A stretch of DNA of 64,000 nucleotides from assembly GCF_020382885.2 (NCBI RefSeq), contig NC_058502.1, positions 14,783,950 through 14,847,949 of the forward strand. The letters are read 5' to 3'. Made by a program: the position numbers and the translations under genes. Below the pieces are notes generated by a model. It saw only the letters and a program-made list of their open reading frames with translations. It searched no databases and had not been told where the DNA came from. Shown piece after piece: positions 19,815 through 58,838 of this stretch (positions are counted from its first letter, which is position 1; the number at the start of each line of letters is the position of its first letter). This stretch comes from Scatophagus argus (Eukaryota > Chordata > Actinopteri > Scatophagidae).

Positions 19815-29337
<9,523 letters not shown>

Positions 29338-32300
29338 AACTCCTCACTGCACAATTTAATTTGAAGACTGGTCCTAATTTGCAAAATGCAAGATGGTTGG
29401 CTTTGTAAAATATTCATCTACTTTTTGTTGTTTATACACTATCCAGATTTTTACATTGGCTTTTCCAAACTGTGAATTCTCTCTTTTTAATCCTAGCTGA
29501 AGATCTATAAGTATAATCAGATTGTAACACTTTTCTTTTACCTTTGATGAGAGACATGTATGCCTTTATTACTTAATATATTTAAAGATATTCCTTTATT
29601 TCCAGAGAATTTTATATCGTGTAATTGCAGGGAAATTACTTTGACTTTGCTACTCATTGTTATTTACAGCACAAGTGCCTTAGCATTGTAATGCTGCATA
29701 CATACATATGAAGAGATCTGTTATTGATCAAACATACATATTTACACCTTGAACAGTGAACAGTGTGAGATTCCAGATTCCATTTTCTTCTGGTGTTCCA
29801 GCTTCTTGCACACAAACATTATTGAAACACACCACCTTTCTGTTTTCTGTCTGTTTATCAGGCACTGATGTATAAAAAGGATCTCAGATGTGCTTCCTTG
29901 TTTATTTATGATTATTTTCCCTGAGGCAATTGAGGCCCTGCTTCACTGATGATGCATTGGCTTGTACGAGATCCACCGTACTTGTGAGGTTTTTCCAGCT
30001 AAAGAGATTAAAAAAGCAGCTCCTGTCTTGTCTGTTAGTGCTCAGTATGTTTGAACATACCTGCCCCCCCCTCCCCCCCCCAGCTCATCAGACTATATTA
30101 AAATTCGTTCTCCTTTGCAGATTTGATTTCCTGCCAGATGTAGCAGTGACCCATTTAATTACGCTTTTCTGAGCATTGTGGTTTTGATGTGACCTAATAA
30201 CCCAGTATAGCTTGCACTGGGTTCCCTATATTGCTTTGGATGATGGTATAGCCTTTGAGGATACGGTTGTCATGACAACCACCTCCACAAGATTCATAAC
30301 CTCAGCCTTCCCCCATCTGTGGTGCAGATGTTCATGTTATCCTGATGAGGAGGTGTTATTTGTTACAGAATACCTTTGCATGGCAACCAGTCATGGATTG
30401 CGCCCCAGTTTTTCTTGGGAAATTATTGTAAAAACATTTTTATCTGATTGTGGCATTACCAACCCCATAAAGAAAGTCCCAGCTCGCTCTGTTGCCCTGT
30501 GTGTGAGCTGTTTGATTTGTTCAAGTTTTAACAAACATGCCTCCAGGTTTCTTTCTGATTGACGCTACTAAATGACAGCACTTCCTGTTTTGCAGCCCCC
30601 ACAGTTTCATCACATGCTTGTATAATGTGATGGTGGATTAGCATGAACAAAATCTCCCCTCAGTACTACTTGTTCAACTAACTTGGCAGAGACCCAGCAA
30701 ATCCTTGAGCAGTTAATCTTGGGGATAAAATAATTCTGTTGAATGAAGAGAGTGCTTTTGTTTTTGTGATCTGTTTTCTTTGCCCACCATTTTTGTTGGG
30801 ATTACGGCAAAGTTTGAGGATGAAGGGGGTAGCACTCTGACCCCAGCAATCTGTTAGCATCTCCCAACAGTTTCTTCTTCATTACAACTAATCCATTGTT
30901 ATGTCAGAGAGGAGAGGGATCCCACACCACCACCACCACCAAGTCTGTGTGTCCTTCTCAGCTTAATTATCCACATCATCTTGTAAAACTGAATAAATAA
31001 CTTGGCTTGTGTTTTCATCATTACACGTATTTTTTTTATGCAGTCAGTGGAATAATTAGCTTTTTGTGTTTTGTTAAAGGAGTATTTTATAATGTTCAGC
31101 AACAGAAGCACAACTTTGGTCTCATTTTATAGACATTCAAACACAAGCAGGCCTAATGTAACATATCTTAAATACGATTTCCTGTTTTAAAGCAATTCAT
31201 TTATACACCATAATGTAAATTATCTCTAAAAGCGTAGTTGCTTTAAATTCCACATTTTGATATGATAATAATGAGAGAAACTGAATAATAATCTGTTGAA
31301 TGGCAAAACGTTTCCTCAGGCAGTATCAAATAAACAGTCTAAAAGCTATAGATGTGGAAGCATTTGGAAGCATATTGTGGAACTGTCCAATGAAAGTGCA
31401 GGTGACAGCAGAGAGGAGGAGAAATCAATACTGTAGACTGTTTGTGTATCCCCCCCAGATGTCTTTCAGTGCCTTACATAGCTGAATGAACAACAATGGA
31501 CCCAGTACATATATCGGTCCATTGACATACGAGACTATATTGACTGACTGGAAGGATAAAATCAAACTGCATTGTGACATGTTTCATTAGTTCAAGGACA
31601 GTCAGGGTTAACTTTCGGCACCAGGGACCAAACGGTATATGCATATGACCGTGTAGGGTTTAATGGTTTATGTTCTAGTTAAAGAAGAAAAATCTACCTT
31701 TTGTGTGTTTCTCAACTTGTCATGGTCCAAAGCTGTTTTCAGGCTGTGTACAAGTATACAAGTCCTTCACAGCATGAACATTAAAAAACCTTACATTTAG
31801 TTGTAATTTGTGAGGTACTTCTTTAAAAAATGATATTGGCTAAAATTGGGACTGTTTAAAGAAGTTTTTAATACCCCCAATAAATGTCTCCGTTTAAAGT
31901 TACAGTTTAATTATTAGAAGTAGACGAAAACTAAGTCTCATCTGAAAATACCTGAAAACCCCACACTTGTGGTCACTTGGGGGTTCAGTTTATCCATCTA
32001 TCTCACACTACAGCTTATTAATATTTTTCAGGATGATTATCTATTAAACACATTAATTATGTGTCTGGATGAGTCCAATGACTGGAAGTCAGCGGAGAGG
32101 ATGTGGTTCATAGGTTGAGGAAGTTATTGGAAATTATGAAATGACATCACCGCAGTTTTTTTCGTGGCTTTGTTTGGTTCCTCTCCTGGCCACGCCTTCC
32201 TGCCAGCCCGATCATAAAGCAGCCAGGCTGTGCGTGTGTGTGCACCAGTTGAACTCCTGTTCAGTGCGGACAACAGGTGCACTTCAGCCTCTCCTCACCG

Positions 32301-33363: not shown

Positions 33364-34837
33364 TGTCACAAAAAAGACACTTATTCAAGAAATTTAAAGA
33401 TACATTCACAAGCTCTATTTGGAAAAAGAGGACATTTGACATTCCCCTGCCTCAACAAAAATACGATTTTAAAGCTTAATTGCAGCTTATGGTTCATTAC
33501 GAGTTTAATGTCTAACCAATGTTTTGTTGATGAATGAACTGAATACCTTAATGCTCTCGTCCTTTGCACATGGTTTTTGTTTTCAGTGGGGCGCCTGTGG
33601 ATTGGCAGAGGGGTTTGCGTAAAGGGACGCCAAATCGTTCCTTTGTGTTGGAGAACAATAACAACAGGGTTTTTTATAAAACCAAACTGGACTGTTTGTG
33701 TTTCCTCTGATAAGAGGGTTTTATCCTTTGTAGGGATTTATCAGTGATGTACAGTATTTAATATTTACTAAATATTTGTACTGTCAAACATTTTCTCAGC
33801 TGATGATTTTATGCCATTTGAAGTAAAATGTTTTTTTTTAATAAGTGTCACTGACCCTTTTAATTTTTTCTAAAGCTGATTTGTGTTATGCTTCTTAAAT
33901 AATTCTGTTACATAATGCTGATTTGCAGTCATTTAGATTACTTTTACACTTCTGGCCGGTTACCAGTTTTAAAGGTTCTTTGTTGCTACTGTGGCTACCT
34001 GAGGCCATTTGGGCATTAGTGATCTAAGCTTCTTAGATTTCCTGTTAAGCAGGGTTGACCAGTGTGCATAGGACCCAGGTGCATGATCCCCTCGGGAATG
34101 ACATCCAGTCTGCTTTACTTTTGTTTTATCTGACAAAACAATGCACGTTGCTACTAGACAGATAGCGGTGGTAAAGCTGGGTAATATTTTCATCCGAAGG
34201 GCAGGAACCACATGGTGAGCAGAAAAGGTACTCCCTGTCTGAAGTGAGAGCCTGGTCCTGACATTCCTATACTCACGTGGTAGTCACTGAGACACAAAGA
34301 GCCTTGTTTTCGTCATATAAGAAGCAATAAACTACTGCCCAGGGTGAAAGAGCTGGTCAGGAACCAGTTGAGGTCTGAGAAACAAACCAGTATGTTTTCA
34401 TTAAGAAACCAATAAACCAAATATCAGCCTAAAAGAGAATTTAAGCTATAAAGACACTCTTGGCTTTTTTGTTGGATCATTCAGGTTACATTTTATTGCA
34501 CTGATCATTAAAGTCAAGGGAAACTCATGCAAGCCTTGGACACAAATGAAATCTTCACAGCGTGGTCCCAAACACATTTAAAATGTGTGTATTTGTGTGT
34601 AGAGTGTAACCTGCAATACTCTTTGTGCATTGTTCTCAGTAACTTAGTAACCAGAGGTGTACTCAGAGCTCTAAAGTTGGACGTTGGAGTGTGACTTTTA
34701 AAGCACAAGAGTGTGTTTGAGAAGCTTGCACATCAACACCCGGTAAGATCTTTTTGAAAAATGAGTTCTACCAAGTGATTTTCTTTCAGTAATCCATGCC
34801 TGTTTTCTCTAAAGGTTTCTTCAGCAGTGGATTTGCC

Positions 34838-37800
34838 ATGAGATCTAAGCGCAAAGACCTTCATCAATCCAGAGTTCTGCCCTCTATTTCAGATGCAAAC
34901 TCACAACCTGTTGCTGTCAGAAAGGTATTTTAAATAACCTACCCAACAGCACTGAGACTTTCATATTTTATTCTGCTCTTACGCTGTTAAATGACATTTA
35001 TTTATTAACATTAATAACATTTATTAACAATTATCTATAGGCATAGATAAATGTAGAGTAATTAATGTGTCCTTGTACTTTGCTACAGTACATGACATTA
35101 CAGATTTCATGGTTGTGTTGTATGTGCAAACAAACAAGCTGCTAGAATAAAACATCCTGTCCTGAATAGATGTTCCCATTGAGTGTCACAAAGTGGTTTT
35201 ATTGTGACATGCTGCAGACTGAGATCACGGCTGAGCCAGTACAGTGTGTACCAAGACCCGATCGGTTCTCCATGGCCTCTGTGATGATATTATCTGCTGG
35301 CTCGGTGACCCAAAGTTGTGTAATCCTCCTCTATTGTGTCATTTCAATCGCGGCCTTGTTTATGCACCTCTCTCTGGTATTCGTCGCCTTCTGATTGAGG
35401 CCTGAGGCCGAACTATTCATGCGTGTGTCTGTCCTGGGGGTGAGAACTGCATTATTATGTCTGAAACAGCTCAAATGCTTGTATTCAATCAGAAGAAGTA
35501 GAATTTAAACAAGCAAGGGCTGGCAACAGTTAGAGGCGGTCGGCTTGGTTACAAGTGGAAACACTTTCTCCACACTGCCTTTCAAGGTTTTTTCATTCGG
35601 AGTTGTTAACTCCAGCCCGTGCTGAAGATCTCTCTTTTCAGCCCTGTCTTTTCATCCCCCGCCACAAGGTATTTCTGTTTACACCTGCAGCAGCTAATGC
35701 CCCTGTTTATCTATTATTTTCTGAAATGACTCAGATAAGCCAATCCCACCTGCCCTTCTCCTTCTGGATCATGAGTATAAAAAAAACAACAAAAAAGCTT
35801 GTTGTTGGCTGCAGGTTTCTGTTCCGGTCACCTCGCTGCGGTATCGTGTCTAGCAGAGTGACGTGGTACAGCAGGACAGCTGCATTATCCTCCGTTGTGA
35901 TCTACGGTGGCAGGGAGCGCAGATGGATGCTGCCTTTCGCTCTGTCGCTGACGCTTTGCACACAGCAGTGAGAGCAAAGAACTGAGGGTCCCTTTGCTCT
36001 GCCGCCACACTATTACTGTGGCAACGGAACTGATAAATCCTGTGTTTCCAGCAGCTTTTGTGAGAAAAGACAAAGTAGACACTTCCTGAACAGACTCAGC
36101 CCCATAAACTTTAGTAATGAGGCCAATGGGTGGCGGTCCGTTAGGAACAAGGCATTTCCCAGGGACAGGGTGACCTCAGAGAGAAGACTTAGATCAGAGA
36201 GTACAGTCCTCCCATAAAATCTCAAGCATACTTTATTTCTAAGTAAGGGTTATAAAAGGGAGCATGTAGCTCCAATTTTTTTAACGTGTAGTTAATCTGC
36301 TTTGGCATGCATGCAAGCTGCCAGTTTATGGTGACATGCTCCACATTTTTAATTTCTTTTCAACTTCTATTGTATTTAAGTCTTAGTAGTCTTTGTTAAG
36401 TAAACATTTGCCTCCTGACATGTGCTGAGTTATCATTCTTTATCAGGATTAAATAAGGACGCGATTGCCCTCATGCTTAGGGCAGATCGTAGCCTTACAG
36501 AATTGCAAGGATTTTTGAAGATCAAGAATTAAGGTGAGAGCTTTGTTGAGGAGTTGGGTACATTCGTTTTGTGTATCTCTTTTTTTTGTTGTTTGTTTTT
36601 TTTGCCTGTGCATTGCAAGAACACAATGTCAGGCTGCTGTGTGGGAGGCTGCTCTTGGCAGAAGGGACGGATCACCAAAAATGCATTCTTTTTTTAATCT
36701 TCAGGAAAGCTGACTGATTCACTCCCACAGCATCTAAACCGGGTTTTTGCTGTTGATAGGCAAGCGATGAAGTCAAATTCGAGCCCTGGAGGAGGAAAGC
36801 ATTTCAGGACAGCAGTCCAGAGCTAGACCAAGAGACCAAGGCCCGGCGTCAGGCTCAGCTGGAACAGGTTGATAACACTATATCAATAATATAAGACACC
36901 TTCATAGTCAATAAAAGCCATATTTCACTGCCAGTCAGTAGAATAGGCACAATAATACAACAGAACAGTGTAAGAAAAAATATCCACTGCGCTTTAATTT
37001 CATCACCTCCCTATCTGTAGTGAATATTGAAGCAGTGCTCTCTGTGTCCATATACTCACTCAGTGCTTCCTTTAAGCTCACCTCCCATCAGCTCGTGTCC
37101 CCTCATATTCTTTGTTTATCTTCCAGCGCCATCTAGAGGCTTACAGGAACATACACCGTCTCCAGGATGCTCTTCATCGCCGTTATGCTGCTTTGCTCAG
37201 GGACAAGGTCCACTCACAGAGATTACTGCTACAGCAGAGAGATGAGGCAGCCAGAGCAAAGTCACAGAGTGAACCTAAGAAGGTAAATTGTTAAATCTAA
37301 ACGGTCAAAAGCTGACCCATGCATTTTTTGAGTTGTATCATTAGTGCCATATTGTTTTTTAGAGATTATATTCTTCAAATATATTCAACTCACAATATTC
37401 AGCTTTTTCCTGATGCCCCTTAGCCATGTTGAACTTTGTAATGTTGCTTCCAGTAATGTTTTAATTTAAGATAAACACAAAAAACGCTTTGTGGTCCTGA
37501 TATGAATCTCAATTGTTTCTACACCTCCCCTCCTGATATCCTCACTGAGGATATCAAAGGAACAAAAATTTGAGCACGAGCACTCAGAGACAACAGTGAA
37601 TGGAGCAGCGACAGTAACAGCATAACATTGACTGGTGCTAGTTTTCAGATTCTGGTCATGATGCCCAAATGTAGAGTGGCTTTATTGTATTTGTCTGCTA
37701 AATAAATGTCATTTTACAACAACCATTTATTTTGTGTTAAGTGTGAGGGGTCACTGAGGATTCTCAGGTCATTTTAAATTTATATATAAATGACAATATA

Positions 37801-40800
37801 ATTATTGTCATTTTTGCTCCCATACATTCTTTTACTTTTTTCTTCACAAAATTGTATTTCCTGTGTGTGAATCTCCGTCTGCTGTAGCTGCTGTGATTGA
37901 CTTTGATTTTGAGTGTTGTGTCTCTGTTCTGACTGGGTGTGAAAACAGCAATAAGCTTTAAGAGAGAGCCCGCATAGAGGAGGTCTAACGTGAGAGAGAT
38001 CCTGTCTTATCTTCCCCTCCTGTAAAAGCTGAGCTTCTTCAGGAGGATGTAATTGTCCTCTCTAATGACTTGCACTTGGTGGGGGGAGACAAAGAGAGCA
38101 CAATAAAGGACTTTAGAAGCCCCGCAGTAGGAATCCTTTGCTTCAAATTGCTGAGCAAATGAAACTACCCGTTGTTTCCTCAGTTCAGATTGAGAGGCTC
38201 CGTCAGAGGTGAGGCAGGACCAAAGCAGGCAACGGCAAGAACACCTACTGGGGCCTAATTGGTCCTTGCTGCAGTAAATGGCTTCCTGTGGCTGCATGTT
38301 TACTTCTCATTTGTTCTATGTGCTCTGTTTCCCAGCCCCTGAAACACAGGACACTCACTTTAAATCTCCTTTCCCACAACTCCCTGTCTCTGACCTTTTC
38401 TCTGTCTGTCTGCCTTCTTCCTTTCTCAGAAACAAAAGAAGTTGGCCATTTCCAAGCTGCAGCACAATGACTCATACCTGAAGTCCCTCCCCAAAACCAG
38501 CTACTACCTGGTAGGTTTTGTCCCATCATCCAAAGCATGATTACACCAAAATATGCAAAAAGGACACATGATTTGAATCCATTCTGACACTGATTCATGT
38601 TTCATCCTCCACTATGACATGCATCAAAGTGACTTTAATCTCTTTTCTGAGATCTTTGACCTCCAGAAGCAGTTGGCTCAGCAAGGACTTCTGAAAACCC
38701 ACCACGAGTTGGAGGACTTTTATACGTGCATCAAATATGGTCACCCATCGCAGGTGCAAAAATGTCTGGAGAATGTGAGGAAAAGGAGTTGAGTTTCGCA
38801 TTTTAATGCACAGACCTTCTTCCTAGATCTGTTAAAAAAAACCCAATAGATTTTATTTATTTTGTATTTATGTCGATGTGATGTCGACAGTGCTGGAAAG
38901 CAGATCTGCAGCTGATTTGATGACTCAGCACCAGATATCAGAAAAACATTCCTGCACTACTGAAGCTCGAGGACAAGAGGACCACATTTCCTACTCAAGG
39001 TGGAGACAGCTTACACTGTTTATGAGCTTGTTTTGGATTTTCTAGAGTGTTGACCACTTTCCCTCTTTGTTCTGGGTGCTGGTCCAATGCTAGGAGCTAC
39101 TTAGCGGTTTGTTCTCACTCATCTTCTTATTCTCCATTTCATCATGTGCTTTTTGTATAGTAAGCAGTCTTACTATACATGAGAGTTGCATCGATCTTCT
39201 CACATAATCCTAACTCAGTTTCCCAAATTGTTTCACTTTTGCTCTAAAATGACAAAACATTTAGTTTATTTGAGCACAATATTCGTCAGCAGCTTAAATG
39301 TCGATATGTCAAATAAAACTTAGAGCATGTTCTGTTTATCTGAGGACCTTTAAGTCTGAGGTTTTATGTGTCAAACATACAGCTGGTGTTGGAGGTGGAC
39401 TGGGGAGGGGGGGGTGTCTGTACTCAGCTGCAGAGGCCTCTGCTGTAAGACTGGGAGTGCTCTGGATCTCTGTTTGCGCTGCCTTTAAGAACAAACACCA
39501 AGGCCGCTGGAGGCTTGTTTAGCATGGACCTTCCTGGAGGAGAGAGCTGATTACTCACGTAGAAGTGAGATGACCAAACACAATCTGACCCGACTGTTGT
39601 GGAGAGTCACCTCCTCAGATGGCCGCTTTGACTCTGACAAACATCATCTGGGAGAAAATGTTGTAATTATGTCCGCTGACAAAGAGACATAGCAATTGGG
39701 CCAGTGGTGTCACTTCATGCCAGCACTGCGAGCAGATGTTGAACTGTTTGGACAGGAACCTTTCATTTAAAGTTTTATGGGCTTTATAGGCAAACAGCTC
39801 CATTTACCAAAAAGCAGCAGAGATAATCCGAGAGCCCATTACATTCTGAGTTTCACTCATCACTAATTGTACGACTAATATTGAAATTTTGCATACACTT
39901 CGGCTGACACGTTAGCTGACAATGTTTTTCAGTTAATACACTTGAAAATTTAGTTTCAGGACTTTCACTGCAACTAGCAATTCCAGCTCAGCTCAGCTCT
40001 TTATTCATGTAATATCGACTGACATTTCAACTGCTTTCACCAGTTTCATTTCAATTCGCACTTAAGCTTCACTTAGCCCTTACACTTGAATTGACACTTA
40101 AACTAATTCAATGCTTACACCTATTTCAGCATTTCCATTCAGCATCTTGCAGTAACTTTAGTTCAACTGCCTTTTCAGCCTCACCTTCAACTGTTTCAGT
40201 AAACAAAAGTACATGGAAAGATTCTTCAGAGTTAGCCATTTCTTTTGGACAATCTTGTAAGTGGTGATAAACCCAAATTATATCCTTGAAATTACTTACG
40301 ACTTTGACTGAAGCATATTACACATGAGGAAATTTTAAAAAGCTTATTTTTTTCTTACTTGTGATGACTTTCATTGTCTCTTCTTGTCATGTCTCTTCAT
40401 TGTCTCTTCACACCGTTGCTGATCAACTTGAACTTTCAAATACAAATTTCACAAATTATATTAAAGCGATGTTGTTTGTTTTCTCTAAGGCGTGTTGTTC
40501 AGATCCACTTTATTTTGTTGCACGGGTTCATTTTACCCTCAGTGTCCTTTGTGTTCACATGTTGTGAATGTATAACAGAACAGTGTCAGCCACTGTCAGC
40601 CTTGTTGTTAATTAGGGCTGAACTCGGTTTAGAAGGAGCATGTATGATGTTAGTACGAGGCTGCGACTGTGAAACAACACGTTGGCTTGGGGACATTAGA
40701 AGATTGGTAAGAAGCCGAATGAAAGCTTGCACTAACAAGTCCTCCATCAGTGTGAAATCTCACCGCTCCACAGACAAACATGGCGAGACAGCGTCTCTCC

Positions 40801-43800
40801 TGTGCCCACAACTCGGTTGTGCCATAGGCACATTCCCCACATCCGTAAGAAATACCCAAAATAAAAGCAATTAGAGCTGAAGGCAAAATATGGACTCAGC
40901 AAAGTCCTTGTTTATGTTTTTAAGTAATGAGCCAATTCATCCAATCTGTCCTGCTTTGTGGCTATTTATATGTTTATTATTAGCTGCTATGATTTACTGG
41001 ACAGTTGAGGCTGTGATTTGCTATCTTTGTGGCCATCTGGTCATGGTCTCTTCAACATGTTGAATTTCACAAGTATGCATTACTGGTCTGCAAAATTAGA
41101 CTGACCAGAATATACCAAGTCTATGACTATAAATCGATTTCAGCGAGTGGAAAATATACATAAGCCTGGGCTCGTCCAGTTGCCTCTTATTTTGTAATAT
41201 CCTGCTATACAACATTTTTAATGAGTTATCACAGTTCTTCATATTCAAGCTTCTACAGACTCACCTGTCAATATATCACCACTAATATTATACATATATG
41301 AGTGCACATTCTCATTCCTCCACCTGCACCCTGAGCAGATAGTGAGGTTTGTATAGATCTGTTACCTGCTGCACTGTCCTGTGAGTAAACGCTGCCTTGC
41401 TCAGGATTCCTCCTGGGAGTTTGCACCCAGCAGACAAAGTGTGTTGTCACCCGAGTGCGCAGTGTTATTGGGTGTGAGCTGCACCACACTATGGCTACTC
41501 TTGAGAAGTAGCAACCCATTAGGAATATATTAACAACCTGACATTTTGTGAGCAGGTCGCACATCAGAGCAGCAAGCGAGTTGAACCAGCTGAAAAAGAT
41601 GTTTTTACACATTTGTAAAGCGTCAGCACAGGTTTCTTTCAAATTTATCCATTGAAGTATGATTTCCTGATGGTTCTTCTGACTGTAAAACTGATTTTTT
41701 TTTTTTATGTGTGTGTGTGTGTAGGTCATCAGAACAACGTTCTGGGTCAGTGGAAGGTTCAGCCGAGATCTTCTGCAGCAGCCAGAAGAAAAATGAATTT
41801 GAAGGAATGTTTCCCAAGGTTAGTGTCAAAACCACATGAGCAGTAGTCCTACTTAACAAGGGCAGTGAGAGGCAAACACACCTGGAACAAACCAACACAT
41901 GAAATCCACACTGACAGAATACACTCAGCGGTGAGGTGTATGACTGTGGGCTTATTAATATATTATTATTCTCTTTGTATCACCCTAAGCTTTCCTTTCA
42001 CTTCCTCTGTTTTTTCCCATTATGTGTCAGTAACACTGTGCACACAACCAATAAAATATCGAAGTAATAGCATTAACATTTTGAGAAATGTGCCTATTTG
42101 CTTTCCTGCCAAGAGGTATATGAGGAACTGATACCAATCTCATACCTGTCCTGGAAACAGGGAGAAACACTCTTGCTCTTTCCAAAGGTACCAAAATCCG
42201 CCTACCAGCGCCTGAAGCTAACCAAAGCTCCTCTCACATTCGGCAAAAAAACCTGGCATTTGTCTTCAGTAGGAAAGGGTGTGGTCAACATTCATTCACT
42301 GATGAAATTACTCTGCAGTATTTACTGATTTCTGGCTCCAATCAACAAACACGACATCCAAGTGGACATAGTAATATTCAACGCTTTTCCAGTGTCGTGC
42401 TATGACTCACGTTGATATTCCAGACGTCGGTGTGTAAATGGTTTCCCATCCCTTTTCGTTAGAGCGGCACCAGAACATCGTTCAGTCGGCATTGAGTTTG
42501 AAAGAGAGACTGAAGTAGTGTCCCATGTTTTCTGGCATGTTTTTGACATGTTTTTGAACGTGACACACCAGAAAGCTGGCAATGCAACTATAGCTGGTTT
42601 GCCCATGCTTAAAAACCCACATACAGGCTCTGTATTGGTGTGAAAATGGTATAACTGCACAGACATGAGAATGGTGTCTATCTTCTCATCTGATATAAGC
42701 ATAGAGAGCCTTATTTTAAATTTTTGCAGTGATATCAGAGATCAGATGGTGAGAAGTAAAGTGAGAACAGTGTGGACATGCTCAGGTGCTGAGGTGAGCA
42801 TATATGGACAAGCACGCAGAACTCATTTTTCTCTCACCTCTGTGTCAAAATGAGCCTCAGCAAACAGACGATGAGCCTGGCTGGGTGGAGAGCAGGCGAA
42901 GGCAAACAGTGGTCAGACAGGACTGGTCAAAGCCAGCAGGCATGCAGGAGAATTACTCACCACAGCTCTGTCCTGCCATCTGAGGTCCTCCGCTGCCGGA
43001 CAGGCCTGTCACTCCTACTGACATCCTGAGGGTGTTTATGTAGAGTTCAGGCTTTGAGTGTTTGTGTGGCACCTTCAGTATGTGACAGGAGACAACTAGC
43101 ACACTTGTTATATCATTCAATAGGCAAATTATTATTATTTTTATTCAGATTATAATTCTCTGAGCGATAGTTTAGTTGGACTTAGACAAGCTGCCTGTAC
43201 ACATCATAATTGAAAGAGTAGACGGATGAAGGATAAAACTGTGTTGTTGTTTACCTGACATATACGTATGTCGTAGGGATGCAGTTCTTTGGTTTACTTT
43301 TGGTTGGGATTTGGCACTATATGAATAAACTGAACCAAACTGAATTGAATTTATGTGATAATTTGATTAAAAAATAACCAGTCCAGAAAACAAACCATTG
43401 TTTAGACATATTTTAGCCCATTCACTACAAATTATGTATAGTTTATGTAAATATCAACTACTTCCATTTATTGCAACATGAAAAACCAGCTAACACAGAC
43501 TTGAAACTTGCTTGTCATAGGTATTAAATCCCATCATGTACCTCATATATAGACTTCAGTCAGAGGCACTCTGATATATATACTTTATATATACTTTTTT
43601 TAAGGAGTTGAGTTGCACCTGCATGAGGGGAGGGGAATGAGCTAGAGATCTATATAGTCCCTGATTGATCAGTAACATTAATTCACAGTGCTGCAGTCCC
43701 ACATCAGGAAGTGGGCTAGTGTGACACTTAGCGCTGGGTGGGTGTTAGAGGAGGAGAAAGAGGTGCCAAATGGGACACTGGGACTGTGGGAAATGACATA

Positions 43801-44798
43801 GACTATGACACCTCTGACTTTTTGTCCGTGGTTAGCTCAGCTTATATGCAAGGGGTTGTCTCTTTTTAAATTACAAAATGATTAATGAGCAAGGAAATGA
43901 TGGATGAATGTAATATGTGCCACCCACAGATGAAAGCTCCCACGTTTGCAACCTTGCAGCCTAACTTTATGAAGAACTTCCAGAGCAAGATGCCTGATTT
44001 GGTAGGTCAGCCATTAATGTCAGTGTATGGCAGCCCAGCGCAGAACAACAGAGGGAAATGCTCACGTTTCCTATGTTTTCCTCAAACTAGATCGTCCCTG
44101 AGATCCCTGAAAAGAGCAGCAAAGCAGAAATTTACTTGAGACGGCTGAGACAAATGCATGATCTCTGTTTAATCAACATGGCTTTCACCCAAAGGTTGGT
44201 AATTTAGCAAACAACCTGAAACATAAAAGAAACGATGCACTGAATGTAACATTTAACCTTTTTCTATAAGTTCAGATTTTGGTTTTAGTAGCAATGAGGA
44301 GACAGGAGATCAGAAGCACATGAAGGAGTCTTTCAACTGCTCTTTAAACTGAGTGAGGTTTGTTTTTCTCTGCTTGCTGTGAACTCTGGTCCAGACTGCT
44401 GGACAGGGAGACAGACTCAATGTGCTGGCAGGAGGAGCGAGACAGCCACGATTTGGTTAGTAACACAAACCAGCCGCAACACAACACAACACAACACCAC
44501 AGAGCTCTATGGAAGCTAACATGTAGCTGTCACACACTATCTACCTTTAACGTTTTTTTTTTTCCTTTGGAGGTCACCATGGTAACATCTCACACCAAAT
44601 AAAATCACCAGCGCACATTAGTTACTTGTGAGCGTGACGCTGTTGTACATGTTTGTACATAAATCAGTCCATATGTTTCATGAACTGAGTTAGCAGTGAG
44701 AGATTCACTATTTTCTTTCATAGCTGCTTCCAGCTATTGACTCCAAAGAAGGGAAGACAGTGTTGAGAATGACCAACCTACATGTCCCCAGCAGCTGA
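34838..44798 (+). CDS. Uncharacterised coiled-coil protein, 11 exons, about 360 aa
   Basis: I do not recognise this gene. Exons: 34838-34924, 36760-36867, 37127-37282, 38430-38510, 38652-38787, 38891-38999, 41725-41818, 43930-44001, 44091-44194, 44395-44455 and 44724-44798. They sum to 1083 bases with GT-AG borders and matching phases (0,0,0,0,1,2,0,0,2,0), ending in TGA. Residues 30-145 are rich in K, R, E and Q and look helical or coiled-coil (for example KARRQAQLEQRHLEAYRNIH). Residues 145-190 are a second helical block (DLQKQLAQQGLLKTHHELED; QKCLENVRKR). Residues 191-245 are serine-rich and probably disordered. A third conserved-looking block follows (AEIYLRRLRQMHDLCLINMA; LLDRETDSMC). 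There is no signal peptide or membrane segment. It lies between prr18 and tbxt, where I recall no human gene. Least certain are the first exon and the exon 5 donor at 38788. Confidence 0.72.
37127..37282 (+). CDS. Exon 3 of the uncharacterised coiled-coil gene
   Basis: Fifty-two codons in phase 0 between 'ttatcttccag' and 'gtaaat'. The product is strongly helical and charged (LQDALHRRYAALLRDKVHSQ), the best coiled-coil stretch of the protein. Confidence 0.75.
37283..38429. other. Intron 3 of the coiled-coil gene; carries an unknown repeat
   Basis: Contains copy 1 of the inverted repeat pair at 37474-37734. Nothing else recognised. Confidence 0.6.
37474..37734 (+). repeat. Unclassified dispersed repeat, copy 1
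   Basis: About 260 bases running from 'aacacaaaaaacgctttgtg' through 'cactcagagacaacagtgaa' to 'caaccatttattttg'. It is nearly identical, in reverse complement, to 58839-59109; shared blocks extend for dozens of bases without a mismatch. No tRNA-like head or obvious terminal inverted repeats. Confidence 0.75.
39000..41724. other. Intron 6 of the coiled-coil gene; no gene seen
   Basis: A 2.7 kb intron that ends in a T-rich run and a (GT)n tract directly before the acceptor at 41723-41724. No exon-like segment with a good frame was found inside. Confidence 0.6.
42060..42245 (+). repeat. Teleost dispersed repeat fragment
   Basis: Contains 'taacattttgagaaatgtg', 'aaacagggagaaacactctt' and 'ccaaaatccgcctaccagc', all landmarks of the same fish repeat family as 7240-7640. 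It lies in intron 7 of the coiled-coil gene. Confidence 0.6.
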
Positions 44799-46053
44799 GC
44801 AGAATGATGTCAGCCAGGTACATGAAAACAAACATGCATGGCATTACTTTTGCTGTGTTTGTTTGTTGCTGTCAAAATACATTTGACATTGTGTGTGTGT
44901 GTGTGTGTGTTGTCTTGGTAGTCAGCGATGTTTTGAGGCTCCGATGTGCTGCCGTAAAACACCTGATCTGTGAAGATGTGTGTCAACAAAAGCTTGTGGA
45001 GGTAAATTAAATGTATCTCTCAGAATTACTGAACTTTTGTAAAGACTGTATTGCTTTTTTATAAAATATAATTTTGTGCTCTCTCCTCAGATAACTGACT
45101 GTGTGTTCAAACTATGGAGAAACTATACAGATAGCACAGATCACTGAAGATATCACCATCACAGCATCTCTTTATGTGGAATGTGTGCAGTTGTTGTGTC
45201 AATTAGCCGCAACTTACAGTTTATGTGAAAAATACATTTTACTCCATCAGTCTACATTAAAATCACTTATTTGTCCATGCAATACTTATTAACTATATAA
45301 AAACAATACTTTATTATATTTCAGAAACGAATACATGATTTTAATATGTATATATACAGTAAAGACAGAATGCACGTGTTGGATTTCTGAAATAAAAGTT
45401 ATACTGTAATAATCTGTTTGAACTCTGATAATGCGTGATGATGATGATGAAGATTTAAAGCTTCAGTTTGTTTTATTTAGTGATTAACAAGCTGTTAAAG
45501 TGTATAATAAAATTATTGAGAATATGGTTGTTGCATCTACGTGTAATTTTTCATTTGCATTTCTTTAATTATATTTAGGATATATTTACGTGACCTAGTC
45601 AGAAAAATGTGTTAAAACTTGAAACATTTTTGACTTTCTGTCCTAAAAATTTCTTCAAAAAAAGTTCAAGACTTAAGATGAATTATGGTCGGTCTGGAGG
45701 GGTTTCTGCAGGTGTGGCTTTGATCTAAGTGTCAATATTTACAGGTTGCTGTAATAAAGTAGGTTGAACTGCTTCATTCAAAATCCTGCCATCCTGTGGA
45801 CCTCAGTGATATGGCCGCTCCCAGCCAATCGGTGTCAAACCCGAAAGGATCAAAGAGGAGATGAGCCAACCATCTCTACTCCAAACACCCATCCCGAGAT
45901 GGAGCTCCTCTTCAGCCTATATATTTAGGAGGCGTTCATGACTTCCTGAGATAACTGCTCGTCTTCGTGGAGACACAAGAAGAGGGAAAAGATTAAGTGT
46001 TTTTCAACTAGACCTGTGATTACAACTACTTAGCCCTGGAGCTGTTGGACAGG
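44799..46053. other. Intergenic region and tbxt promoter
   Basis: About 1.25 kb holding the 3' UTR of the coiled-coil gene (candidate AATAAA at 45391-45396) and the tbxt promoter and 5' UTR. A (TG)n run lies at 44889-44910 and a (GAT)n run near 45436. Confidence 0.65.
45711..45927 (+). promoter_or_regulatory. tbxt proximal promoter: two TCF/LEF-type sites, CCAAT box, TATA-like element
   Basis: CTTTGATC at 45718-45725 and GATCAAAG at 45848-45855 are inverted copies of a TCF/LEF core. CCAAT is at 45825-45829 and TATATATTTA at 45918-45927, 136 to 127 bases before the tbxt ATG. GGTGTGG at 45711-45717 resembles a T-box half-site. Mammalian T is a direct Wnt target with TCF sites in its promoter (family knowledge). 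Confidence 0.55.
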
Positions 46054-56021: not shown

Positions 56022-58639
56022 GTAGGAGTCGTGGTCACAAATGGCAGCTTGAAAGCAGAACTGTTTGTTATAAGGTATTTGATATCCTCAGGGAATGTTT
56101 GATGAATTCGTGTAGCTTTTGATGTGTCTGCGTAGCATTTCAGAGTTGGTACCACTGCCCCGGGGATGCGCACATTAGCTGCTGCATTAACTCTATGGAT
56201 CCATAAAGTATTAAACCTGTACATGACCGTGTTGCCATGCAATCACCTCCCCATTCAAATAGGTATTTCTGTCCCTAGAAAACAATCTTCTGTGTTGCTG
56301 CGGATTACTTTTTATAATCTCTCATCAGTTCCCAGCAGAGTCAGATTTGTGTGACATTAGGTCTGGTTGCAGAACAGCCTTTCATTTCCAGCTACAGAAG
56401 AAAGTACAGGAAATGCAAACTGTGGCATGAGAGTTATAGAGGCTGGGTGCACTCAGCTCGGTTGGTGGTATGACTGTCATTATACAGCAAAAGAACGACC
56501 TGTTGATTTAGAAACTGGATTATACACATGTGAAGTATAATGGTGGCTCACCAACAGTACTTTTTCCAGTTGTGAAGTGAGTTGATATATTGATATGTAC
56601 TGTGTGAATTTAGAGGAAAAATGTTAACAGTCACTTCTTACACGGCCTGTGGTCCAGGGACACTGGACCTGCACCCATTAGGTGTGTTCAGCAATCCACA
56701 ATACATCCTCATACCTAAACAACTGAATAGATCCATTGCCACTGACCAGATCAGTTCATTGTCTTGCAAGTCAGTGAGTCCAAAGTCTTTGCACTCAAGT
56801 CTCAAGTCAAGGTAACAATTATTTTCACACAAGTCATTGATGGTAAAGTCTGAGTTGGGTTGCAAGTCTTTTTTTTTTTTTTTGTGACTTTAGTCCATAC
56901 GAATCAAGTCCACACCTGCCAGTGACCTCCTAACCACACCGTTGGAGAGGACGGATAATGCTAAGAGATAGTCACAGTTTTAATTAATGTAGCTTAAGCT
57001 CCATTTTGTAAAATAACATAGATGAGCACTTACTTTTGACTTTTTAATTTACTCTGGACATAAACATAAGTGTCCTGGGTGAAAGTCTGGGTCTGTTTGA
57101 CCTTATTCATCCACTCCAGCTGCCTGCATATGCAGACTTTGTCGCTCTCTGTACGTCACCTGACCTCTGGCTGTGATAATCTATCCGTGACGCTAAAAAG
57201 CCAACTACCCATCATAACCTTCTGACTCTGGCAGGGGGTTCACCAGAAGGGGCAAGTGCTACCTTTGGCCACCATTCTGGCCCCGCCACGGACTGGTCCT
57301 TACTGATTGCTAATGATTCTGCACTGAGGACTGGGGAGCTATTTTACACTTAACAACAGACACAAGACAAGGCCACAGTGTACATTGAGCGTAACAAACT
57401 GTTCTCACCGGTCAGGTTTCTTTGAGATTAAACACAGAGGGTCAGGGGAGCTTTAATCCAGTCATGAGGATGACTGGATTCTAAAATATAAATGTGCGCA
57501 AATTGTTGCATGCTCTTTGGATGGTAAACAATATCCAGTATAAACCAAAATCAGTCCTATTCGTAGGAATGTTATGCTTTATCTTCCTAACAGTGTATGT
57601 GATCCGAGATCGGTGTAGTTGAAAACCTGGGTTCAACACATCCTTTTGCTTGAAATTAAAGCATTCCTCTTTTTCAGCAGGCAGCTTTTGAAATACCTTG
57701 AACAGAAGTGTGGCTGCTATTATGCTGGCAATCATAACAGGAGTTGTAAGTTCAAGGCCAAGAACAGCATCACCTTCAAGCAGAGAGTCGTGCCTGTTTG
57801 CATGAATAGTGCAGTAGCAGTGAAAACGGCTTACATGATGACAAGATGTGTGGTGTTTCCTTTGCATCACATTATTATATTTTAATATTTCTGTTCATAC
57901 ACGAGTATATATGTGGTTATCATCAGTGAGGTCTATGGATTATTTTGAGAAATGCTTATTCTAATGATAATAGAATAATGAAGTAATTTGTCAATGTTTT
58001 TAGCAGCAAAAAACAACCTCAACTGCATTAAGATGGAAGCAGAAACCCCTCAAACAAATATCTCAAAACATGGACAAATAAAGTCATATTTATAAGTGTG
58101 GTTAGGTACCACTTGAGGAAGGTATTTTGAAACTTGACCCCTTAAGACCTTAATATGAACTCATAAACATTATGGCTTCCGAAGGCGTGCAGACTTGTTT
58201 GTTTGCACTGAAGATGTAACTTGTTTACTTCACAGTCTTTGGCTCAGCATCTTTTTGGGCAAACGCCCAAGCAAGAGTTTCCCTTGGCTAACATGGAAGG
58301 AGAGCCGGGCGCTTCCTTCCCTGACTGTGCATAGCATCTGTGACTACTCAGGGGGTACACACCCACTGGACTCCTCCCACTCAAGGTTTTGACCTCCTGC
58401 ATGCTTTTGAGCATGCTGACATCATTGTGCATTATACAGTACATTATCAAAGGAAATGGGGGTTCGCTCACCAAGGAGTTATTCGCGAAAGAACCAGATT
58501 ATATTCTCACAAAATGCTTCTTTCTTAAAAATCTGGCAGCAGTGCATGATTTTTTGCTTATCTTTTCAAGTATTTGTTACAGAACTGCTCGTCTGGAGGA
58601 TCTGGCTCTCAGGTGCATTCAGTCAGCTAAATGTTTTAA

Positions 58640-58752
58640 ACAAAATGAATTTCCTCCGTGTGAGACTAATAAAGGCCTATCTTATCTTATCTTATCTTAT
58701 CTCATCGTATCGTATCGTATCGTATCTTATCTTATCTTATCTTATCTTATCT

Positions 58753-58784
<32 letters not shown>

Positions 58785-58790
58785 AACTAT
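58640..58790 (+). repeat. Retroposon-like tail with (CTTAT)n pentanucleotide array
   Basis: 'gtgagactaataaaggccta' leads straight into about 100 bases of CTTAT/CGTAT repeats. The 'actaataaagg' lead-in is common at the 3' ends of fish LINE/SINE copies, and a similar lead-in occurs at about 15916-15930. Confidence 0.7.
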
Positions 58791-58838
58791 CTTGAAATTA
58801 AATTAAAGTTAAGCTGTTTTGTGAATCAGTCATTTATC

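Follow-up and report, generated by a model that had tools for sequence, protein, structure and literature searches.

In the passages of Kemmler 2023 (PMC10584899) that concern the brachyury neighborhood, the order Sft2d-(Prr18)-Tbxtb-Pde10a is given as holding throughout jawed vertebrates, with no gene mentioned as lying between Prr18 and Tbxtb. Where Maugars and Dufour 2015 (PMC4536197) treat the placement of lhcgr2, they have mertk on one side of it and sft2d1 on the other in gar, tilapia, zebrafish, and eels. The window analyzed here is a 64,000-nucleotide stretch of the Scatophagus argus genome (contig NC_058502.1, positions 14,783,950 to 14,847,949; coordinates below are those of the window, continued in both directions for flanking DNA). 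In this genome prr18, tbxt, and pde10a follow one another in the order outlined in those passages, and lhcgr precedes them, much as the cited account of lhcgr2 has it, but the locus differs from the described block in holding a probable extra gene between prr18 and tbxt. The neighbors match the jawed-vertebrate tbxt block, and because of the Tbxtb-block and lhcgr2 placements given in these parts of the two papers, tbxt here is probably tbxtb.

The local order is lhcgr, prr18, this gene, tbxt, pde10a, and then a gene with a TSNAXIP1_N domain resembling C6orf118. The flank on one side was identified as PRR18 by Pfam (PF15671, E 1.6e-30) and that on the other as brachyury by a match to T protein in the PDB (E 5.5e-59), the T-box also being found by Pfam, which bears out the position between prr18 and tbxt proposed in the first-pass annotation. 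PDE10A was named by sequence search, and the glycoprotein hormone receptor is nearest to LHCGR (E 5.2e-135; thyrotropin receptor, 2e-128). By eye, an SFT2D1-like exon was recognized at 21755, as was mertk, for which the kinase and I-set matches are only sub-cut-off.

Between these flanks, an 11-exon chain running from an ATG at 34838 to a TGA at 44798 on the plus strand could be rebuilt from the sequence, with all introns GT-AG, consistent phases, and 336 codons uninterrupted by a stop or frameshift. The first-pass annotation had described one coiled-coil gene of 11 exons and 360 amino acids with correct splice sites and consistent phases. The rebuild agrees with the 11-exon GT-AG chain and its phases, while the length, exons 6 and 7, and the coiled coil were not confirmed. 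With 336 codons in place of 360 residues, at least one exon border must differ from the earlier reader's model, and the exon model given here is provisional. The features of the locus are as follows.

34632..34651, plus strand: weak X-box-like (RFX) site 0.2 kb upstream of the ATG; score 10.4, at chance level with a generic matrix
34743..34814, plus strand: possible 5' UTR intron of 72 bases; good donor, CACCCG followed by GTAAGATC, scoring 3.8, with acceptors at 2.7 and 1.7; the alternative acceptor gives 34743-34789
34838..34924, plus strand: exon 1, with the ATG start; rebuild and codon test, the gene finder using the same donor
36760..36867, plus strand: exon 2; codon score in the top 0.002 of the null, not picked by the gene finder
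37127..37282, plus strand: exon 3, charged helix; rebuild, gene finder, and codon test
38430..38510, plus strand: exon 4, where the SLPKTSYYL block begins; rebuild, gene finder, and codon test
38652..38753, plus strand: exon 5, remainder of the SLPKTSYYL block; rebuild, gene finder, and codon test, with a weak acceptor
38929..38999, plus strand: exon 6, doubtful; codon score not above the null, one of 69 bridges
41725..41818, plus strand: exon 7, doubtful on bridge ranking and codon test
43930..44001, plus strand: exon 8, with an in-frame ATG at its opening; rebuild, gene finder, and codon test
44091..44194, plus strand: exon 9, YLRRLRQMHDLCLINMAFTQ block; rebuild, gene finder, and codon test
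44395..44455, plus strand: exon 10; codon score in the top 0.003 of the null, and gene finder
44724..44798, plus strand: exon 11, with the stop TGA; rebuild, gene finder, and codon test
45391..45396, plus strand: AATAAA, possible polyadenylation signal, one among many in the region

The two blocks that the first-pass annotation had singled out fall in exons 4-5 and 9-10, both of which are coding-supported. Splice and X-box scores come from generic matrices, and with the splice matrix negative values were obtained for the acceptors of both exon 5 and exon 6.

Codon usage was scored with a table trained on 13 coding pieces of neighboring genes and long ORFs (2782 codons), two of the pieces being long flank ORFs taken without an identity search. 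The 11 exons reach a log-odds of 28.7 nats over 334 codons, or 0.086 per codon, akin to the neighboring genes of the training set, whose own score, measured in-sample, is 0.095 per codon. Against a null of stop-free noncoding segments equal in length to the exons (1500 per exon), the sum of which has a mean of −26.8 and a standard deviation of 10.9, this corresponds to z 5.1, with some selection remaining in this and the other z values because the nulls leave outside them the earlier reader's freedom in picking exons. In a smaller null built from 272 AG..GT-flanked open segments, 0.00005 of 20,000 draws reach the observed sum. Tested alone against the stop-free noncoding null, exons 1-5 carry coding signal at z 4.1 (p 4e-5) and exons 8-11 at z 3.1 (p 1e-3), and exons 6-7 show no coding excess (z 0.8, p 0.20). 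Single exons are mostly non-significant on their own, the fraction of the null scoring at least as high being 0.162, 0.002, 0.017, 0.033, 0.146, and 0.440 for exons 1 to 6 and 0.161, 0.098, 0.124, 0.003, and 0.087 for exons 7 to 11.

A crude gene finder was applied in a local version to the 12.3-kb region, with penalties from −4 (loosest) to −8; over 264 kb it fused neighboring genes into one chain, and the local version was used for all scores. At −4 the region scores 45.0 vs. 2.7 ± 4.3 (maximum 12.9) in 40 dinucleotide shuffles, and its minus strand scores 23.8. The finder reproduced exons 3, 4, 8, 9, 10, and 11 to the base, used the donor of exon 1, and predicted an in-frame part of exon 5; exons 2, 6, and 7 were not recovered, other exons being put in their place. 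At penalties −7 and −8 the sole output is a five-exon gene ending at 38792. As a real-DNA control we took 28 other 12.3-kb segment-strands, which overlap one another and one of which overlaps prr18 together with exons 1-5 of the target. Two of the 28 outscore the target at the loosest setting, namely that segment and one holding pde10a, and the best control segment without a recognized gene scores 38.7 vs. 45.0 for the target. At −6 one control row without a recognized gene reaches 20.6 vs. 20.5 for the target, and at −8 three such rows beat it. The margin of the gene finder is clear over shuffles, small over real DNA, and gone at stricter penalties, so the case for a gene rests on the codon test and not on the gene finder. 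Because of the control scores we lowered our estimate that this is a real protein-coding gene slightly, from highly probable to very probable.

The predicted protein is basic, with a net charge of +13 and 30% charged residues. The coiled coil of the first-pass annotation is weakly supported: there is one charged, proline-free stretch at about residues 50-110, and the best 28-residue window in a heptad test is non-significant against shuffles (p 0.13). A profile search of the kind suggested at the outset, run with Pfam on the whole protein (E up to 1) and on three parts of it (E up to 10), yielded no family above its cut-off. A PDB sequence search with the whole protein and the two blocks gave best E values of 0.32, 0.8, and 0.02, none of them convincing, with the proviso that remote relatives would escape such a search; the match at 0.02 is to a designed or repeat-like protein, and no stretch passes alone. 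The earlier statement that no family could be assigned thus holds for Pfam and PDB sequence searches. Searching the genome with the protein (570.7 Mb, 48 contigs, E 0.001) placed 11/11 matches at this locus and showed no second copy at that threshold. Matches to Pfam ALC, DUF4439, and DUF4715 were rejected, all being below cut-off. DUF4715 (PF15835) resembles the charged helix weakly, aligning with residues 55-108 at E 0.03 when the N-terminal part is searched, but its scores of 14.8 bits for that part and 10.2 bits for the whole protein compare with a curated cut-off of 27, and a search of the genome for this domain at E 1 gave no match. Pattern searches for relatives produced 13 matches in viral contigs and 125 in prokaryote genomes, of which none was confirmed. 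A literature search gave no name for this gene among the matches listed and did not find any of four peptide words from the protein; fish gene catalogues may already list the gene as uncharacterized. Because of the codon statistics, the position, and the lack of a convincing Pfam or PDB match, an unnamed gene between prr18 and tbxt is well supported.

Our preferred reading is that this is a real, probably single-copy teleost gene on the plus strand between prr18 and tbxt, encoding a helical structural or adaptor protein whose best-guess place is the centriole, motile cilium, or sperm tail, and we give this full reading a probability of roughly 0.35. The coding signal of exons 1-5 and 8-11, the position, the one copy detected, and the lack of a family in the searches are what the data show, and the basic, charged, proline-free helix also speaks for this reading. 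The product would be small and basic, about 280-340 residues long. In it a charged helix at the N-terminus would be followed by a helical block from exons 4-5, then probably by a linker that is short and variable, and at the C-terminus by a second helical block from exons 8-11. It would most likely be a structural or adaptor protein whose helices bind partners, and such a scaffold role, like the membership of both halves in a single gene, is something we infer. The ciliary or sperm setting is a guess on little evidence. Counted against the full reading are the small gene-finder margin over real DNA, the missing coding excess of exons 6-7, and the non-significant heptad test. The X-box-like site at 34632..34651 ranks 108th among the 861 rows that score above 8 in the 264 kb, palindromic sites being counted on both strands, and is at chance level. 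There is also no convincing PDB sequence similarity to axonemal or centriolar proteins with solved structures, among which remote relatives would escape.

An unlikely alternative is that sequence search has missed the kinship of this gene with a vertebrate protein already known, perhaps an axonemal one, of which it would be a diverged orthologue. The searches were of the single-sequence and Pfam kind, which leaves room for such a protein, but the whole protein and its blocks gave no convincing match, and C6orf118 occupies its own place. In human, C6orf118 sits beside PDE10A. Here a TSNAXIP1_N exon (PF15739) follows pde10a at window coordinate ~114890 (G000:C10:14898839-14898964), and on its domain and place we take it to belong to the C6orf118 orthologue. 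C6orf118, of the TSNAXIP1_N family, resembles this gene in its helical product and its place in the same chromosomal block, and it is linked to cilia (the ciliary role being only proposed in the portion of PMC8317215 that bears on it), but TSNAXIP1_N is absent from this protein at Pfam E up to 1, or up to 10 for its parts. With another TSNAXIP1_N gene holding the PDE10A-side place, this gene is not C6orf118, and that identity was rejected.

If the gene is real, both halves likely belong to one gene, a judgment made on strand, phase, and position only. The 5.2-kb gap between exon 5 and exon 8 offers 69 possible two-exon bridges, where 30 resamples gave 30.1 ± 22.3, and 3 bridges of a single exon, where they gave 5.5 ± 2.5. 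Exons 6 and 7 together rank 40th among the 69, and these bridging exons are indistinguishable from chance. Exon 5 can also read through to a stop ending at 38792, which opens the unlikely arrangement of two small genes, a five-exon one at 34838-38792 and a second with coding exons 8-11 (43930-44798) starting from the ATG of exon 8. The retention of just the five-exon gene by the strict gene finder, the chance-like appearance of exons 6-7 in both bridge ranking and codon test, and an AATAAA at 39312 would fit this arrangement, but the direct join of exon 5 to exon 8 keeps the frame, the halves share a strand and an interval, and no promoter or first exon for a second gene was identified. The weakest alternative, that open segments line up by chance or that the gene has decayed, with no protein made in either case, is very improbable. 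In its favor, many chains can be drawn in such DNA (69 two-exon bridges in the one gap), the acceptors of exons 5 and 6 are poor, and some segments without a recognized gene approach or exceed the gene-finder score of the target, but the codon score at z 5.1, the far lower gene-finder scores of all 40 shuffles, and 336 stop-free codons speak against it.

To our knowledge, the interval between PRR18 and TBXT is free of genes in human. One reading, quite unlikely as a whole, is that an old jawed-vertebrate gene in this position survived in fish but not in mammals, that its introns held or hold brachyury enhancers, and that gene loss with the enhancers retained left the stretch ahead of mammalian TBXT without a gene. 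Should the gene be real and conserved, it would be an unstudied gene inside a much-studied regulatory neighborhood and a test case for gene loss with retained enhancers. Brachyury's upstream DNA is commonly taken to be noncoding; in this fish it would then consist partly of another gene's exons and introns.

Several minor observations were made in the same DNA. Two further X-box-like sites stand out: GTCACCATGGTAAC at 44573-44586, a near-palindromic RFX-like site that is one of the top scorers of the 264 kb, lies within intron 10, some 1.4 kb ahead of where tbxt coding sequence starts, and GTTGTCATGACAAC at 30266-30279, a perfect palindrome, is the joint best of the 264 kb. A bacterial promoter scan is uninformative for fish DNA. 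On either strand of the flank segment 68500-80799, where no gene was recognized, the gene finder gives 37-39, through either base composition or an unrecognized gene. ORFs at about −4607 to −4179 and about 118420-118746 look by eye like pieces of a LINE-type reverse transcriptase and a Tc1/mariner transposase, respectively. An exon of the mitochondrial calcium uniporter family (PF04678, E 1.7e-35) lies on the minus strand at about 136454-136705, and a pentamer-like simple repeat at 58344-58806 translates as LSYLI repeats in two frames.
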